38,946 nt of DNA from Acidimicrobiaceae bacterium. Its GTDB lineage: Bacteria; Actinomycetota; Acidimicrobiia; Acidimicrobiales; RAAP-2. The stretch is taken from NCBI GenBank assembly GCA_027315005.1, contig DAHUZT010000071.1, positions 1 through 38,946 on the forward strand. The letters are read 5' to 3'. The notes beneath the pieces were generated by a model, which saw only the letters and a list, made by a program, of their open reading frames with translations, was not told the origin of the DNA and ran no database searches. The position numbers were made by a program, and so were the translations under genes. How positions within the stretch are numbered: position 1 is the stretch's first letter; every line of letters starts with the position of its first letter. Positions 5,773 through 14,097 of the stretch are shown here, in pieces.

Positions 5773-6945
5773 ATGGAATCGACACCGTCGGCCGGGCGCC
5801 GAATCGTGGTGGACGGCTCGAACATCGCCACCGAAGGACGGGCCACACCGAGCCTGGCCCAGCTGGACGAGGCGATCCGGGCATTTCTCGATGAGCACCC
5901 GGGGTTCACCACGGCCGATGTGACCGTGGTGGTGGACGCCACGTTCGGCCACCGCATCGATCCGTCGGAAGTCGGGGCGTTCGAGCAGGCGGTCGAGCAC
6001 GGGGAGATGGTCACCCCGCCGGCCGGAGCCGTGGGCCGGGGAGACGGGTTCATCCTGCGCATCGCCGACAAGGCCAGTGCCCTGGTCCTCTCCAACGACT
6101 CGTTTCAGGAGTTCCACTCGGAGCGTCCGTGGTTGTTCGAGCCTGGCCGGCTGATCGGGGGGAAACCGGTGCCCGGCGTGGGATGGGTGTTCACCCCGAG
6201 GACACCGGTGCGCGGAGCGGTCAGCCGCGCGGTGACGACCCGGTCGAAACGGACACCCGAGTCCGCCGACGCGACCTTCCGGCTCGCGGGTGGTCTCGAG
6301 CCTGAACAAGTCGCGGACCGGAAAGTCGTCGGGGGCGAAGTCACCAGGTCCGCCAAAGACACCGCGTCCCCCACGGAGACTCTGGGGAAAACCTCGGCTG
6401 GACGCGCCAAGGCCTCCAAGGCCCGCAAGCCAGCGAAGTCCACCCCGACACCAGCAACTGACTTGGCCATCAAGAGCACCAAGGGCGCGAAGGCGACCGG
6501 AGCCGCCAAGACCGCCAAGACCGCCAAGAGCACCAAGGGCGCGAAGGCGGCCGGAGCCGCCAAGGGCACCAAGGGCGCGAAGGCGACCAGGGTTTCACTG
6601 TCGGTGCCTGAGCACCCCGGTGCCACACTCGACGGCGGCGATCCCCCGGTCGGTCCCCGTCGTGACGGCCAGGCACAGAACGACGCACTGACGTTCTTGA
6701 CCTTCGTGGCCGAGCATCCGGTGGGCAGCACGTTCGAAGGCACTGTGAAGGCGTTCACCTCGCACGGCGCACACGTCGACGTCGGGGGCATGCTCTGTCA
6801 CGTTCCCCTCCGCAATCTGGGTAGTCCCCCACCGACCCGCGCCCGCCAGGTCCTGGCCAAAGGAGAGACTCGGCCGTTCGTGCTGATCTCGCTGGATGCT
6901 CCGAGGCGACGTGCCTCTCTCGCCCTACCGGGCGTCGAAGGCTGA
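5773..6945 (+). CDS. NYN/PIN-like ribonuclease with Lys/Ala linker and C-terminal S1-like domain
   Basis: Residues 9-140 resemble a NYN (Zc3h12a-like) nuclease domain of the PIN superfamily. The acidic residues expected at a metal site appear in DGSN (Asp14), VVVDATF (Asp55), GRGDGF (Asp91) and SNDS (Asp109). Residues about 150-285 are a low-complexity linker rich in Lys, Ala and Thr, with repeats of KGAKATGAAK type like histone H1 or HU tails. Residues about 315-386 resemble an S1 RNA-binding domain: GSTFEGTVKAF, then HGAHVDV, then a final strand RRRASLAL. I infer an RNA-processing or decay enzyme that holds nucleic acid through both linker and S1 domain. No toxin or antitoxin partner is adjacent. 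The ATG at 5773 is the first good start. The next gene begins 55 nt downstream. Confidence 0.7.
   Translation: MESTPSAGRRIVVDGSNIATEGRATPSLAQLDEAIRAFLDEHPGFTTADVTVVVDATFGHRIDPSEVGAFEQAVEHGEMVTPPAGAVGRGDGFILRIADKASALVLSNDSFQEFHSERPWLFEPGRLIGGKPVPGVGWVFTPRTPVRGAVSRAVTTRSKRTPESADATFRLAGGLEPEQVADRKVVGGEVTRSAKDTASPTETLGKTSAGRAKASKARKPAKSTPTPATDLAIKSTKGAKATGAAKTAKTAKSTKGAKAAGAAKGTKGAKATRVSLSVPEHPGATLDGGDPPVGPRRDGQAQNDALTFLTFVAEHPVGSTFEGTVKAFTSHGAHVDVGGMLCHVPLRNLGSPPPTRARQVLAKGETRPFVLISLDAPRRRASLALPGVEG
6466..6594 (+). repeat. In-frame imperfect repeats coding the Lys/Ala linker
   Basis: The unit ACCAAGGGCGCGAAGGCG occurs three times, twice followed by a copy of ACCGGAGCCGCCAAG or its variant, with ACCGCCAAG pairs between. 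All copies keep the reading frame and encode Thr-Lys-Gly-Ala-Lys-Ala type repeats. Such tracts change length easily by slippage. Confidence 0.75.
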
Positions 6946-9926: not shown

Positions 9927-10679
9927 GTGCCGGTGCTGAAGTCGTTTGCCGGCGGCCGCCTGTTCGGTGCCACCTGGGGCTTCGGCGATGCCAGGGCGTT
10001 GGCGCTGCACGGTTGGCGGCGCAATCACCGGGACTTCGACGCGGTCTTCGGCCATCGGTCCGGACCTGCGATGGCCGTCGATCTCTTCGGCTTCGGTGCG
10101 ACCCCGGCCCCGCCCGAACCGTGGGGTTCCAGCGACTACGCCCGGGCGCTCCTCCCACTCTTCGCCGATGGGGCCGGATTGGACGAACGCATCGTGCTGG
10201 TCGGCCACTCCTTGGGGGGGAGGGTGGCGCTGCACCTGGCCACCCTCGTACCCGAACGCGTGGAACGGATGGTGTTGTGCGGCGTCCCTCTGGTCGATCT
10301 GGAAGGGAAAAGGTCCAGACCCGCCGCTTCGTTCCGCCTGACCCGCCGCCTCCACCGGCTGGGTCTGGTGAGTGACTCGCGCATGGAGGTGATGCGCAAG
10401 CGGTACGGGTCACCGGACTATCGGGCCGCCGACGGCGTCATGCGGTCTGTGTTGGTCCGGCTGGTCGCCGAGCAATACCTCGAGCAGATCCGGTCCGTCA
10501 AGTGTCCCGTCGACCTGGTCTGGGGTGCGCTCGACACCGAGGTTCCGGCCGAGGTTGCGGTGAGGGCCCGCCCGATGTTCGCCCGCGCCGAGCTCCGGAT
10601 CGTGCCCGGAGTCGGGCATCTCGTGCCCACCGAGGCGCCCGATGCCCTGCGTCGAATCGTGTTCGGCGCCGGTCGGTGA
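9927..10679 (+). CDS. Alpha/beta-hydrolase fold protein
   Basis: The 250-residue protein has the classic fold order: LALHGWRRN (oxyanion strand), nucleophile elbow GHSLGG with Ser95, GALDTEVP with Asp203, and GVGHLVPTEAP with His231, forming a Ser-Asp-His triad. The substrate cannot be inferred from the triad. It is translationally coupled to the MurF-like gene: its TGA (10677-10679) overlaps that gene's GTG start at 10676. Co-transcription with two peptide-ligase genes suggests a role in the same envelope pathway, perhaps releasing or trimming an ester-linked intermediate; this is inference. The start is either GTG 9927 or GTG 9933; 9927 gives the fuller N-terminus. Confidence 0.8.
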   Translation: MPVLKSFAGGRLFGATWGFGDARALALHGWRRNHRDFDAVFGHRSGPAMAVDLFGFGATPAPPEPWGSSDYARALLPLFADGAGLDERIVLVGHSLGGRVALHLATLVPERVERMVLCGVPLVDLEGKRSRPAASFRLTRRLHRLGLVSDSRMEVMRKRYGSPDYRAADGVMRSVLVRLVAEQYLEQIRSVKCPVDLVWGALDTEVPAEVAVRARPMFARAELRIVPGVGHLVPTEAPDALRRIVFGAGR

Positions 10680-12316
10680 ACTCGCTCGTCGTCGACGCCG
10701 TGGTCGGCATCGTCGGCCCGGTGCGGTTCCACTCGGCTGTGGCGTGGATCACGTTCGCCGCCTGCTTGGCCGCCTGTGGTCCGGCCGGACTGCGGTGGCT
10801 CCGGGTCGCCCAACGGGAGCACTACCTCGGCGGCGCCGTATCGGTCTTCGCCCGCCGATGGTGGACCGCGTCGAAACCGAACCTGGCTTTCGCCGGCGCC
10901 GGCGTCGTCTCGGCGGTGCTATCGGTGTCATGGCCGCTGGTCGGTGTGGTGACGGCTCTGGTGGTTGCTGGCGGGCCGCTCGGTCTTCGGGCACGGGGTC
11001 GGACCGCGCCGCTGGTCTGGACCCGCCGAATGAAGAGCCTGGCCGCGGTGTGGGTCACTGGAGAGGCACTGGTTCTGCTGGCCGGCGTGGCGCTGGGACT
11101 CGGCGCACCCGCTGCGGTGCTCGTGGCACTGACGGTGCCGATCTTCGTCGATCTGGCCTGCGTGGTCACCGGGCCGGTCGAGCACCGGTTGACGGCTCGC
11201 TTCGTCGACGAGGCAGCCGAGCGGCTCGCTCTGGTCTCACCCGCCGTGGTGGGCGTGACCGGGTCCTACGGCAAGACGTCGACCAAGGGCCACATCGCAC
11301 ATCTAGTCGCACCCTCACGTTCGGTGGTGGCCACCCCGGCCAGCTTCAACAACCGGGCCGGGTTGGCTCGGTCCATCAACGAGCACCTGACCGAGGGCAC
11401 CGAGGTGTTCGTGGCCGAAATGGGCACCTACGGTCCGGGCGAGATCGCCGACCTCTGCCGCTGGTGTCCCCCGGACATCAGTGTGATCACTGCCATCGGT
11501 CCTGTGCACCTCGAGCGCTTCGGCACCGAAGATCGCATCGTGGCGGCCAAGTCGGAGATTCTGGCTCCGGCGGCCACGGTGGTGCTGCCCGTCGACGACC
11601 CTCGGCTGTCCGCGGTCGCCGATGGGGCCGCTGCCGCAGGGAAGCGGGTGGTGCGCTGTTCGGCGGCCCCCCACCTCGACTCCGGTGAGCAGGTCGACAT
11701 CTGGGCGAGACCGACCGCGCGGGGAATGACGCTCATGGTCCGCGGCGCCACGGTGGTCGAAGGTCTGGTGCTGCCTACCGGCGTCCAGCCCTCCAACCTC
11801 GCGGTCGCGGTTGCCGTCGCACTGGAGCTCGGAACCGACGCATCGGTCATCGCCACCGGGTTGCGCGATCTCACCGCCGTCGATCACCGGCTCCAGGAGC
11901 TCACCGCCCCGTCCGGCGTGGTCGTCCTCGACGACACCTACAATTCGAATCCGGTGGGGGCGACCGAAGCTCTGCGGGCCCTCGCCGGTGGAGGGGCAGG
12001 GCCCGTCGGGGGAACCGCACCGGGTCCGGGCCCCCTGCGGGTGGTGGTCACTCCGGGCATGGTCGAGCTCGGCCGGCGACAGGCGGAGGAGAACCGGAAG
12101 TTCGCCGTCGCCGTCGTGAGCGTGGCCACCGACCTCGTCGTCGTCGGACGGACCAACAGGAAGGCCCTACTCGCCGGAGTGCACTCCGTTCCCGGTCACC
12201 GGGTCAACATCCACGTGGTCGATGACCGCACGGAGGCGGTGAGCTGGGTACGGGACCACCTCGGTCCCGGGGACCGGGTGCTGTACGAGAATGATCTTCC
12301 GGACCACTACCCTTGA
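10676..12316 (+). CDS. Membrane-anchored MurF-like Mur ligase
   Basis: Residues 1-170 hold several hydrophobic helices (about 18-38, 70-100 and 122-165), replacing the domain with which MurF grips UDP-MurNAc-tripeptide. From 190 the Mur ligase core begins: P-loop GVTGSYGKTSTK (193-204, Lys200), FNNRAGLARSI, AEMGTYGPGEI, GPVHLERFG (275-283), AKSEI (291-295) and DDTYNSNPVGATEA (from 419), the last being typical of MurF in the C-terminal domain. MurF joins D-Ala-D-Ala to the UDP-MurNAc tripeptide; here the membrane anchor suggests a lipid-linked or membrane-proximal acceptor (inference). The GTG at 10676 overlaps the hydrolase stop (GTGA). The Ddl-like gene follows after 115 nt. The protein is 546 residues and ends in a YENDLPDHYP tail. 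Confidence 0.82.
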   Translation: MNSLVVDAVVGIVGPVRFHSAVAWITFAACLAACGPAGLRWLRVAQREHYLGGAVSVFARRWWTASKPNLAFAGAGVVSAVLSVSWPLVGVVTALVVAGGPLGLRARGRTAPLVWTRRMKSLAAVWVTGEALVLLAGVALGLGAPAAVLVALTVPIFVDLACVVTGPVEHRLTARFVDEAAERLALVSPAVVGVTGSYGKTSTKGHIAHLVAPSRSVVATPASFNNRAGLARSINEHLTEGTEVFVAEMGTYGPGEIADLCRWCPPDISVITAIGPVHLERFGTEDRIVAAKSEILAPAATVVLPVDDPRLSAVADGAAAAGKRVVRCSAAPHLDSGEQVDIWARPTARGMTLMVRGATVVEGLVLPTGVQPSNLAVAVAVALELGTDASVIATGLRDLTAVDHRLQELTAPSGVVVLDDTYNSNPVGATEALRALAGGGAGPVGGTAPGPGPLRVVVTPGMVELGRRQAEENRKFAVAVVSVATDLVVVGRTNRKALLAGVHSVPGHRVNIHVVDDRTEAVSWVRDHLGPGDRVLYENDLPDHYP

Positions 12317-12431
12317 GCGATCGAGCCGATCGACACCCGGGTGGCCGGGTGGACCGAGGTCGTCGAGGGTCCGGTCGTCGAGGGACCGGTCGTCGAACCC
12401 GTTGAACCGCTGATCGAGGAGTCTCCGCATC
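12317..12431 (+). repeat. VVEGP-coding 15-bp repeats in the MurF/Ddl gap
   Basis: Within this gap GGTCGTCGAGGGTCC (12358-12372) is repeated as GGTCGTCGAGGGACC (12373-12387) and partly again (12388-12400). In the frame of the MurF-like gene, past its TGA, the repeats spell VVEGPVVEGPVVEP followed by VEPLIEES, an acidic proline-containing tail with no stop until after the next gene's start. It may be a lost C-terminal extension. The end of the gap holds the Ddl-like gene's GAGGAG ribosome-binding site (12415-12420). Confidence 0.5.
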
Positions 12432-13580
12432 GTGTCCGACGTCGCCGTCATCTTCGGAGGTCCATCTCCCGAGCACGACGTCAGCGTGCTGACCGGCCTG
12501 CAGGCCTTGCGGGCGTTGACCACCGCCCGTAGTTCGGAGACCGCCCCGGGCGGGACGGGACCGGTCCGGGCCCTCTACTGGTCGACCATGGGGGAGTGGT
12601 TCGAGGTCGACCCGGCCCTCGAAGCCGAGGCGTTCCTCGACGGGGTACCGCGCGGCGCCGCCCGCCTGCAGCTGGTCGCCGCCGCCGGCGGTGGGTTCAC
12701 CCTTTCCCGGGGCCGCCTCGGTCGTGCACAGAAGCTCGAGCTCGACGCAGCGCTCATTTGCTGCCACGGTGGTCCGGGCGAGGACGGAACCCTCCAGGCG
12801 GCTCTCGATCTGGCCGGTATCCGATATTCGGGACCGTCGCCGTCCGGGGCCGCTCTCGGTATGGACAAGTTCGCCTTCGGTTCGGTGATGTCCGCGGCGG
12901 GGCTTCCCACGTTGCCACGCCTGCTGGTGACCCCCGAGGACGGCCCGCACACCCAGGCGCCTGATTTCCCGGGTCCCTACATCGTGAAGCCCCGATTCGG
13001 GGGATCGTCGATCGGCATCGACGTGGTAGAGGACTGGGAAACCGCGCGACACCGGCTCTCCTCCAATTCCCACCTACGGCTCGGGGCTGTCCTCGAGCCG
13101 TACCGTCCCGAACTGGTCGATCTCCAGGTGGCGGCCCGCGTCTGGCCGGTGCTCGAGCTGTCGGCCATCGAACGACCGATCCGCTCGGCAGCGTCGGCCG
13201 ACATCCTCGACTACCGCGACAAGTACGTTGCGGGGGAGGGCATGGCCGGGGCAAAACGGGAGCTTCCGGCAGAGATCACTCCTGAGCTCGCCAAGGAGCT
13301 TCGCCAGTCCGCCGCGGTGATCGCTGCGCTCACCGGTCTCCGGGGCGTCGCCCGGATCGACTACCTGTCGGACGGCCGTCAGCTGCTGGTCAACGAGATC
13401 AATACCATTCCGGGATCCCTTGCCCGGTACCTGTGGATCGAACCCGCCATTCCCTTCGCGACGCTTCTCGGTGATCTGTTGGACGAGGCCTGCCGACGAC
13501 CCACCCACATCTATTCGGCAGCAGGAGCCGATGGGTCGGTGCTCCGGTCAGCTGGATCCATCGCGGGCAAGCTGAGCTGA
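12432..13580 (+). CDS. D-alanine-D-alanine ligase-like ATP-grasp enzyme
   Basis: The 382-residue protein has the Ddl plan: GGPSPEHDVS (Glu14), CCHGGPGEDGTLQ, SALGMDK-type AALGMDKFAF, ATP-grasp YIVKPRFGGSSIG (Lys186, Ser192), DYRDKY (260-265), GVARIDYL (Arg308, Asp310) and NEINTIPG (Glu322, Asn324). Ddl condenses two D-alanines using ATP for the peptidoglycan stem. After NTIPG the sequence reads SLARYLW, whereas canonical Ddl has G-M/F-T-x-x-S, where a Ser contacts the second D-Ala carboxylate. The acceptor may therefore differ, though D-Ala-D-Ala remains possible. The GTG start is the only in-frame choice after a TGA at 12411-12413 and has GAGGAG upstream. It sits directly after the MurF-like gene, a pairing seen with D-Ala-D-Ala synthesis. 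Confidence 0.8.
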   Translation: MSDVAVIFGGPSPEHDVSVLTGLQALRALTTARSSETAPGGTGPVRALYWSTMGEWFEVDPALEAEAFLDGVPRGAARLQLVAAAGGGFTLSRGRLGRAQKLELDAALICCHGGPGEDGTLQAALDLAGIRYSGPSPSGAALGMDKFAFGSVMSAAGLPTLPRLLVTPEDGPHTQAPDFPGPYIVKPRFGGSSIGIDVVEDWETARHRLSSNSHLRLGAVLEPYRPELVDLQVAARVWPVLELSAIERPIRSAASADILDYRDKYVAGEGMAGAKRELPAEITPELAKELRQSAAVIAALTGLRGVARIDYLSDGRQLLVNEINTIPGSLARYLWIEPAIPFATLLGDLLDEACRRPTHIYSAAGADGSVLRSAGSIAGKLS

Positions 13581-13584
13581 TCGT

Positions 13585-14097
13585 TTGGCTGGTTCGCGGC
13601 TCTCTCTGCTGCCCGGCGAGGAAGTGCTGGTCGACATCCGACCCCACTGGACGGTTCTCCTTACCCCTCTGGTCGTCGCCTCCATCGCGGTCGCCGCCGG
13701 AGTCGGGCTCGACATCGGTCTCCCCCGGACCTCGGTTCAGCTCCACTGGGTCGAGGCACTGGCCGTGGCAGCGCCCTGCACCTGGCTGGGAGTCCGGGCG
13801 GTGGGGTGGATGAGGCGGGGGATCGTGCTCACCCCCTACCGGTTGTTCGACGTCCGGGGCCCGGGTTCGAGGAACTGCTACGAGATGCGGCTGAACGAGA
13901 TCGAATCGGTGGTGGTCGTCCGGGGGATGTTCGAGCGGATCATCGGCCGAGGTGCCCTCGATCTGGTCCTGGTGACCGGCGAGGTCCACACCGTCGACGA
14001 CGTGCGCAAGCCGGTCGTGCTGCAACGTGTCATCGACCGGCGATTGGGATCGGTGGGACCGGTTGCGAGGAGACCGCGTCCCCGGTGGGGCCGGTGA
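13585..14097 (+). CDS. Two-helix membrane protein with bacterial PH (bPH2-like) domain
   Basis: The 170-residue protein has a short N-terminal segment LLPGEEVLVDIRPHW, two hydrophobic helices at about 23-46 and 57-76, then a small domain: GIVLTPYRLFDVRG, MRLNEIESVVVVRG, RGALDLVLVTG and HTVDDVRKP. This is the layout of YdbS/YdbT-type bacterial PH-domain proteins, whose roles are mostly unknown and envelope-related. The start is TTG at 13585, 4 nt after the Ddl-like stop, so it is the last gene of the hydrolase/MurF-like/Ddl-like operon. I infer an accessory envelope role. No catalytic residues were seen. Confidence 0.7.
   Translation: MAGSRLSLLPGEEVLVDIRPHWTVLLTPLVVASIAVAAGVGLDIGLPRTSVQLHWVEALAVAAPCTWLGVRAVGWMRRGIVLTPYRLFDVRGPGSRNCYEMRLNEIESVVVVRGMFERIIGRGALDLVLVTGEVHTVDDVRKPVVLQRVIDRRLGSVGPVARRPRPRWGR

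Follow-up and report, generated by a model that had tools for sequence, protein, structure and literature searches.

We have analyzed a group of genes in an Acidimicrobiaceae genome, on contig DAHUZT010000071.1 of assembly GCA_027315005.1; the whole 38,946-nucleotide stretch is called the window. The group encodes an alpha/beta hydrolase, a MurF-type ligase with a predicted membrane anchor (TM-MurF), a Ddl-type ATP-grasp ligase and a bPH2-like protein (Table 1). An earlier interpretation made from the letters alone (the sequence-only reading) had given this gene order, with a GTGA overlap between the first two genes, and domain matches confirm it. The overlap lies at 10676-10679, and TM-MurF is taken to start at the GTG that overlaps the hydrolase stop, a start that is uncertain. 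We propose that the trio of hydrolase, TM-MurF and Ddl probably provides the housekeeping MurF/Ddl step of this organism, by means of a separate, membrane-integrated class of MurF.

Table 1. Genes and protein features of the cassette, in window coordinates
Feature	Coordinates	Strand	Remarks
Alpha/beta hydrolase	9927..10679	+	Frame opens at GTG 9894; GTG 9927 suits relatives; Abhydrolase_6 E 5.9e-19
TM-MurF, MurF-type ligase with predicted membrane anchor	10676..12316	+	Mur_ligase_M 7.2e-27, Mur_ligase_C 6.3e-10
Predicted membrane domain, TM-MurF residues 1-194	10676..11257	+	From hydropathy; replaces MurF's UDP-MurNAc-tripeptide-binding domain
First conserved loop, residues 40-50 (RWLRVAQREHY)	10793..10825	+	Q46 and Y50 invariant across phyla
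Second conserved basic loop, residues 108-118	10997..11029	+	T116 invariant, R118 in 132/134
ATP-binding P-loop TGSYGKT, residues 195-201	11258..11278	+	Lys 200 in 134/134
DDTYNSNP motif, C-terminal domain, residues 419-426	11930..11953	+	Common to MurF structures
ENDLPD, residues 538-543, C-terminus	12287..12304	+	Class signature replacing K(G/A)S of standard MurF
Ddl-type ATP-grasp ligase	12432..13580	+	PF01820 Dala_Dala_lig_N 3e-18, PF07478 Dala_Dala_lig_C 4.2e-17
bPH2-like two-helix protein	13585..14097	+	bPH_2 20.3 bits vs cut-off 22 (slightly below)

What kind of ligase is TM-MurF? The curated murF model TIGR01143 matches it over model positions 65-402 only, with 177.6 bits against a cut-off of 288.6; positions 1-64, corresponding to the N-terminal MurF domain, are unmatched. 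Two features of MurF membership are present, the ATPase domain with its P-loop and the motif DDxYNxNP, which we take to mark MurF, and two are absent, the N-terminal domain and a score at the curated level. The best solved relatives are the MurF structures 3zl8, 4cvk, 2am1 and 1gg4, and their alignment with TM-MurF begins shortly before the ATPase domain. The approximately 194 residues at the N terminus contain four hydrophobic segments predicted by hydropathy, so that the sequence-only reading was right to describe a MurF core with hydrophobic helices replacing the UDP-binding domain. A simple hydropathy rule applied to 131 family members with a P-loop gave five segments in 80 and four in 30. 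The membrane domain matched no Pfam family, and no credible relative was found for it in the PDB (best E 0.068). Its conservation is beyond chance, because Q46 and Y50 are invariant in 133/133 homologues and T116 in 134/134; P167 and E169 are conserved ahead of the catalytic part. The charges of the two loops, both of them basic, would fit a topology with the N terminus outside and the C terminus inside.

The catalytic part was examined in an alignment of 134 TM-MurFs, used in place of rough motif patterns that missed many true members (Lys motif 109/132; the two loops 76/132 and 72/132). Lys 200, Glu 248, His 278, Lys 292, Arg 405 and Asn 425 are invariant, Lys 292 being presumably the counterpart of the carbamylated lysine of Mur ligases. 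Within the DDxYNxNP motif D420 is found in 133 sequences, N425 in 134 and P426 in 130. A metal-binding histidine is described for Mur ligases in the portion of PMC6085368 available to us. Since the catalytic residues are invariant, the ATP-dependent chemistry and the DDxYNxNP motif evidently remain in TM-MurF. An NDLP tail is present in 129/134 TM-MurFs; ENDLP occurs in 0/23 standard MurFs, which end in K(G/A)S in 23/23 when read by eye (a scripted pattern, narrower than this reading, counted 15). A TPGMxELG-type motif occurs in 129/134, and the corresponding GxMxELG in 20/23 standard MurFs. Judged on its sequence, TM-MurF is a ligase that has kept MurF chemistry and in which the acceptor side has been rebuilt.

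The Ddl of the cassette also falls below its curated model (TIGR01205, 165.3 bits, cut-off 245.65), with both Pfam Ddl domains present. Its best solved relative is 3lwb. It has a four-residue deletion after NTIPG and a GEGM insertion. Alignment of 20 cassette Ddls with three standard Ddls shows that the DKY stretch is kept and the loop after NTIPG is shortened, and the shortened loop was also present in every one of the 67 (of 87) neighbour Ddls that fitted a loose pattern. The VanA-type loop after NTLPG was not seen: the cassette Ddl has NTIPGSLARYLW where the VanA-type ligase of Nocardioides sp. YR527 has NTLPGLTSYSRYPR.

The hydrolase, with residues numbered from 9894, carries a triad S106-D214-H242 and, around D175-Y176, a cap motif. 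In an alignment of 101 rows, which counts the window's own sequence twice, S106 is present in 100 with one gap, D214 and H242 in 101/101, and the cap Asp-Tyr is invariant. The protein lies far under every NCBIfam cut-off, the best being MenH (58.3 vs 208.55), and its solved relatives are a mixture of esterases, C-C hydrolases and depolymerases that singles out no function. With triad and cap conserved, the protein is likely to be an active serine hydrolase that acts on a single kind of substrate. It is probably dedicated to the TM-MurF route. That it trims or proofreads the peptide end is only a guess.

The sequence-only reading had assigned these genes to a second ligase pair, additional to a conventional murF and ddl elsewhere. 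The genome assembly (3.06 Mb, 93% complete) does not bear this out. A Mur_ligase_M search returned five proteins, namely MurE, TM-MurF, MurD, MurT (beside GatD) and FolC, and no other MurF. MurC was also not found in the assembly, which therefore probably has gaps. Searching with PF07478 gave one real Ddl, that of the cassette, and three weaker matches of 22-34 bits; the latter lie in frames (592-1245 aa) whose appearance, judged by eye, is that of carboxylase or carbamoyl-phosphate synthase proteins. The trio is thus not a second pair; it contains the only MurF and the only Ddl found in the genome. A real murF hidden in an assembly gap was considered and rejected, as a standard MurF is present in 0/36 of the relatives with TM-MurF vs 21/25 of the others. 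The further statement that this is not the dcw copy stands. The own-genome murE lies between ftsI-like and mraY genes on another contig, and TM-MurF is the sole Mur ligase found on its own contig.

Do the two types of MurF occur together? The genome and 60 relatives were searched, counting as standard any MurF above the TIGR01143 cut-off. TM-MurF was present in 36 genomes and standard MurF in 21; no genome had both, and four (G017, G028, G037 and G046) had neither. Both types occur within the window's own genus (eight TM and six standard among 14 genomes). The cassette hydrolase family follows the same division, at 204 bits or more in 36/36 TM genomes and in 0/21 standard genomes, where the best score was 151. 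A Ddl was found in 35 of the 36 TM genomes, always of the cassette type (147-179 bits, none above the cut-off); in the remaining one (G044) the cluster runs into a contig end. Among the 21 standard genomes a Ddl exceeded the cut-off in 15, was low-scoring in a long frame in four, and was missing at the threshold in two, both of which do hold Ddl-like frames.

Three further samples gave closely similar results. Among 129 genomes of the phylum of Peptoniphilus, counted from the matches listed (at least about 174 bits), 123 had the standard type, five TM-MurF, one a standard fragment and none both. Of 61 genomes from the phylum of a Chloroflexi record, 50 were standard, one had a fragment, three had TM-MurF, seven neither and none both. 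Seventy genomes from the phylum of a Porphyromonadaceae record comprised 54 with standard MurF, 15 with TM-MurF only and one with TM-MurF and a long MurF frame. MurF frames of 803-892 aa stand beside standard MurF in 13 genomes of this last sample, where the long frames behave as extra paralogues; frames of 800-900 aa were taken by length as MurF-alanine racemase fusions, the Pfam domain being shown for L042, L047 and L052 only.

We have also analyzed 51 genomes picked for TM-MurF. Two of these hold in addition a MurF above the cut-off, Nocardioides sp. YR527 and a Sphingomonadales record. In YR527 (L196) the standard MurF is a soluble protein encoded among genes matching the VanH, VanA-type ligase, VanX, VanR and VanS families, and the dcw cluster runs murE-mraY with no murF, so that the housekeeping MurF is most likely the membrane type. 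The presence of a VanX-type D-Ala-D-Ala dipeptidase in this TM-MurF organism suggests that the normal Ddl product is D-Ala-D-Ala.

A number of other observations came from these samples. G504 (L284), G544 (L285), G526 and G564, of the Peptoniphilus phylum, carry alongside standard MurF a short MurF-like protein (368-382 aa) that lacks the N-terminal domain. Extra copies in that sample were classed as non-TM from the length of the frame and the place of the match; the two that were read, in G504 and G544, show no membrane helices. A second match in G729 is not of the TM type. G043 has two TM-MurF cassettes (contigs C28 and C41), each with hydrolase and Ddl matches, reflecting either contamination (5%) or a true duplicate. 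G017 and G028 gave no Ddl at the thresholds used. Six same-genus relatives without TM-MurF (L042-L047; G002, G004, G005, G009, G011 and G012) carry three genes in a row, for standard MurF, for a long product with Ddl-like sequence, and for a fusion of MurF with alanine racemase. By Pfam, two Ddl copies were shown in L042 alone and the racemase fusion in L042 and L047. In many standard-MurF genomes of the order (L048-L051, L053, L055-L060) murF and ddl form a divergent pair outside dcw.

A tree of the catalytic domain places 48 TM-MurFs on one side and 21 standard MurFs, six long-frame MurFs and five MurEs on the other (80 rows; L190, L205, L052 and L204 failed a pattern and were dropped). The branch has support of 100/98 and is present in all 200 bootstrap trees, and within it the proteins group largely by phylum. 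The conclusion that emerges from the tree is that TM-MurF is one old class of MurF. In an even sample of the window's phylum the profile of the membrane domain was matched by 26/396 genomes, in 15 cases strongly. A tree of MurE from 39 of the 61 genomes requires the MurF type to switch at least six times, four of these forced by well-supported branches, and makes the window's genome sister to G002, which has standard MurF. It left out L253 and L254, with neither type, and L258 and L270, MurE-like matches without dcw neighbours.

The cassette is kept far outside the window's genome, in keeping with the proposal of a membrane-side MurF/Ddl pair. We examined 110 TM-MurF loci, 30 from the genome and its relatives and 80 from named records (the best 80 of 568 loci, among which the nearest are Acidimicrobiia or Acidimicrobiaceae assemblies). 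Neighbours were judged by similarity and distance. The hydrolase is adjacent in 100, the Ddl in 87 and both in 83; part of the misses is due to contig ends, and L018 was scored as a miss with both neighbours present. Carriers include Acidimicrobiia, Nocardioides, Gulosibacter, Bacteroidales, Clostridia, Bacilli, Peptoniphilus, Chloroflexi, Poribacteria and a Chlamydiae metagenome-assembled genome. Where regions were fetched regardless of neighbours, 4/4 were clustered in the Peptoniphilus-phylum sample and 2/2 in the Chloroflexi-phylum sample, the latter in the order Ddl-hydrolase-TM-MurF. A Poribacteria record runs ftsI-murE-hydrolase-TM-MurF-Ddl-mraY-murD, the trio occupying the place of murF in dcw. 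The gene directly before mraY in 30 TM genomes is murE in 27, ftsI in two and the cassette ddl in one, and never murF.

The sequence-only reading had treated the cassette as one of four genes. Three of these co-occur as it supposed, but the bPH2-like gene lies within the 1.5-kb flanks of 11/30 loci; it is not core and accompanies the cassette in some relatives only. A divergent UvrD-type helicase gene, seen only near the window's relatives, was set aside as non-core. That reading had also named two outcomes that would count against it. The first, absence of another murF and ddl from the genome, is what we find; the second, lack of conservation elsewhere, is not, since the cassette is conserved. 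Away from the cassette, window positions 5773-6942 encode a Zc3h12a-like NYN ribonuclease domain and an S1 RNA-binding domain, with a repetitive Lys/Ala/Gly-rich linker between them.

Several results weigh against a housekeeping role for the trio. G017 (94% complete) and G028 (95%) have neither MurF type. The Sphingomonadales record (G474), which has both a standard dcw murF and the cluster, is a real exception, and seven more of the 51 genomes (five Bacteroidales, one Chlamydiae and one Anaerolineae) combine TM-MurF with a MurF-like match below the cut-off, mostly in frames of 826-968 aa. In the Porphyromonadaceae-phylum (Bacteroidota-type) TM regions the Ddl is adjacent in 0/15, and the hydrolase lies within the fetched stretch in 5/15. 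Independent contrasts are few, with four pairs on supported branches and six on all, a number that does not reach significance (p 0.125); the test sets type against itself, since the hydrolase follows type exactly. Hydropathy was the sole basis of the predicted topology. Finally, murE is likewise followed by mraY in 12/12 standard-MurF loci of the order that were fetched by MurE and extend as far as mraY. A dcw cluster without murF was for that reason rejected as a diagnostic of the TM type; G040 and G060 are standard-MurF relatives that retain murF in dcw.

How might the trio function? The cassette Ddl would make D-Ala-D-Ala. TM-MurF, anchored through about five helices and with cytosolic catalytic domains, would spend ATP on activating the stem tripeptide at its C-terminal carboxylate and would join the dipeptide to this carboxylate on the inner side of the membrane. 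From TM-MurF being the sole MurF found and from the mutual exclusion of the two types, we infer that D-Ala-D-Ala is the dipeptide added to the stem tripeptide and that the product is the pentapeptide. The acceptor would be presented at the membrane.

Our tentative preference is for a lipid-linked tripeptide as acceptor, with MurF acting after MraY. The N-terminal domains of Mur ligases bind the precursor, according to the part of PMC11915815 available. The accessible parts of PMC6085368 and PMC6113224 state that MurT, which is without the UDP-binding domain, amidates lipid I and II and not UDP-linked precursors, and their authors comment that such an N-terminal domain would clash with the membrane. 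In Staphylococcus aureus with lowered murF, tripeptide is built into the wall, as described in a portion of PMC9603463; because tripeptide enters the wall, later steps can accept it in that species. Taken together, the changes on the acceptor side, the MurT parallel and the tripeptide wall of S. aureus favour a lipid-linked acceptor, without amounting to proof. It is then conceivable, at somewhat less than an even chance, that in bacteria of several phyla the soluble route ends with UDP-MurNAc-tripeptide and MraY produces lipid I-tripeptide; TM-MurF, with its Ddl and the serine hydrolase, would then finish the pentapeptide on the lipid carrier, and the order of MurF and MraY would be reversed.

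The trio might instead act on soluble UDP-MurNAc-tripeptide, TM-MurF still being the housekeeping MurF and its membrane domain serving only to put the enzyme beside MraY, to which the product is handed over. In favour of this, the whole catalytic part resembles MurF, the TM genomes examined for mraY have both MurE and MraY (murE standing directly before mraY in 27/30), and the Poribacteria trio sits in the usual murE-murF-mraY place. Against it, the domain for binding the nucleotide has been lost, a mere anchor would not call for several helices and for polar loop residues that never vary, and the acceptor-side motifs have changed too. We consider this rather unlikely. It is more doubtful still that the trio installs a different stem-peptide end, either another D-amino acid or a hydroxy acid, with the hydrolase trimming the ordinary one. 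Such a role could account for the shortened loop after NTIPG common to the cassette-type Ddls and for the single hydrolase family beside TM-MurF in 36/36 relatives, but the cassette Ddl retains the DKY of the three standard Ddls and does not have the NTLPGLTSYSRYPR form of the YR527 D-Ala-D-Lac ligase, and the VanX-type dipeptidase of YR527, whose dcw is without murF, points to an ordinary D-Ala-D-Ala product. An accessory second pair acting on some other membrane acceptor, as first proposed, would suit the membrane domain itself and the Sphingomonadales record, but is very improbable given exclusion in samples of 61, 129, 70 and 61 genomes and the failure to find a further MurF or Ddl here; for this genome it is contradicted, except in the case that the 7% missing from the assembly holds a standard murF.

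MurF is described as soluble and essential, and is a drug target. We found no description of a membrane-type or missing MurF in the openly licensed literature searched. On our preferred interpretation, an old and widespread bacterial class appears to perform the MurF step with a membrane-embedded protein that has no UDP-binding domain and is linked with a hydrolase and a special Ddl, neither of which the textbook pathway needs. If so, annotation with the curated murF model misses TM-MurF, and the order of the last precursor steps becomes a question open to direct testing in non-pathogenic isolates, among them Gracilimonas amylolytica and Blastochloris sulfoviridis, in which TM-MurF was the sole MurF found.

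How does the trio compare with known systems? TM-MurF shares with MurF (TIGR01143) the ATPase domain, DDxYNxNP and the catalytic Lys and His positions, but differs in the membrane domain that replaces the UDP-binding domain, in its sub-cut-off score and separate clade, and in having NDLP and TPGMxELG where the standard enzyme has K(G/A)S and LGxMxELG. A second point of comparison is MurT of the lipid II-amidating MurT/GatD complex, again a Mur ligase without the UDP-binding domain, which acts on lipid I and II; in contrast to TM-MurF it has a short N terminus rather than a membrane domain, and its reaction is an amidation (PMC6085368, PMC6113224, in the parts available). The MurT of this genome is a separate protein next to GatD (contig C75), whereas TM-MurF has no GatD partner. 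The cassette Ddl has both Pfam domains in common with Ddl (TIGR01205), and differs by its low score, the NTIPG deletion and the GEGM insertion. The van clusters, in which VanH, VanA and VanX are accompanied by their own MurF, likewise hold a Ddl-type ligase and a MurF as a set; unlike the trio they have a soluble standard MurF, a VanA-type ligase and a VanX dipeptidase, and one is co-resident with the trio in the YR527 genome. The hydrolase has the fold and Ser-Asp-His triad of MenH/BioH-type alpha/beta hydrolases, and is set apart from them by its own cap motif, with the invariant D175-Y176, and by its tie to TM-MurF.

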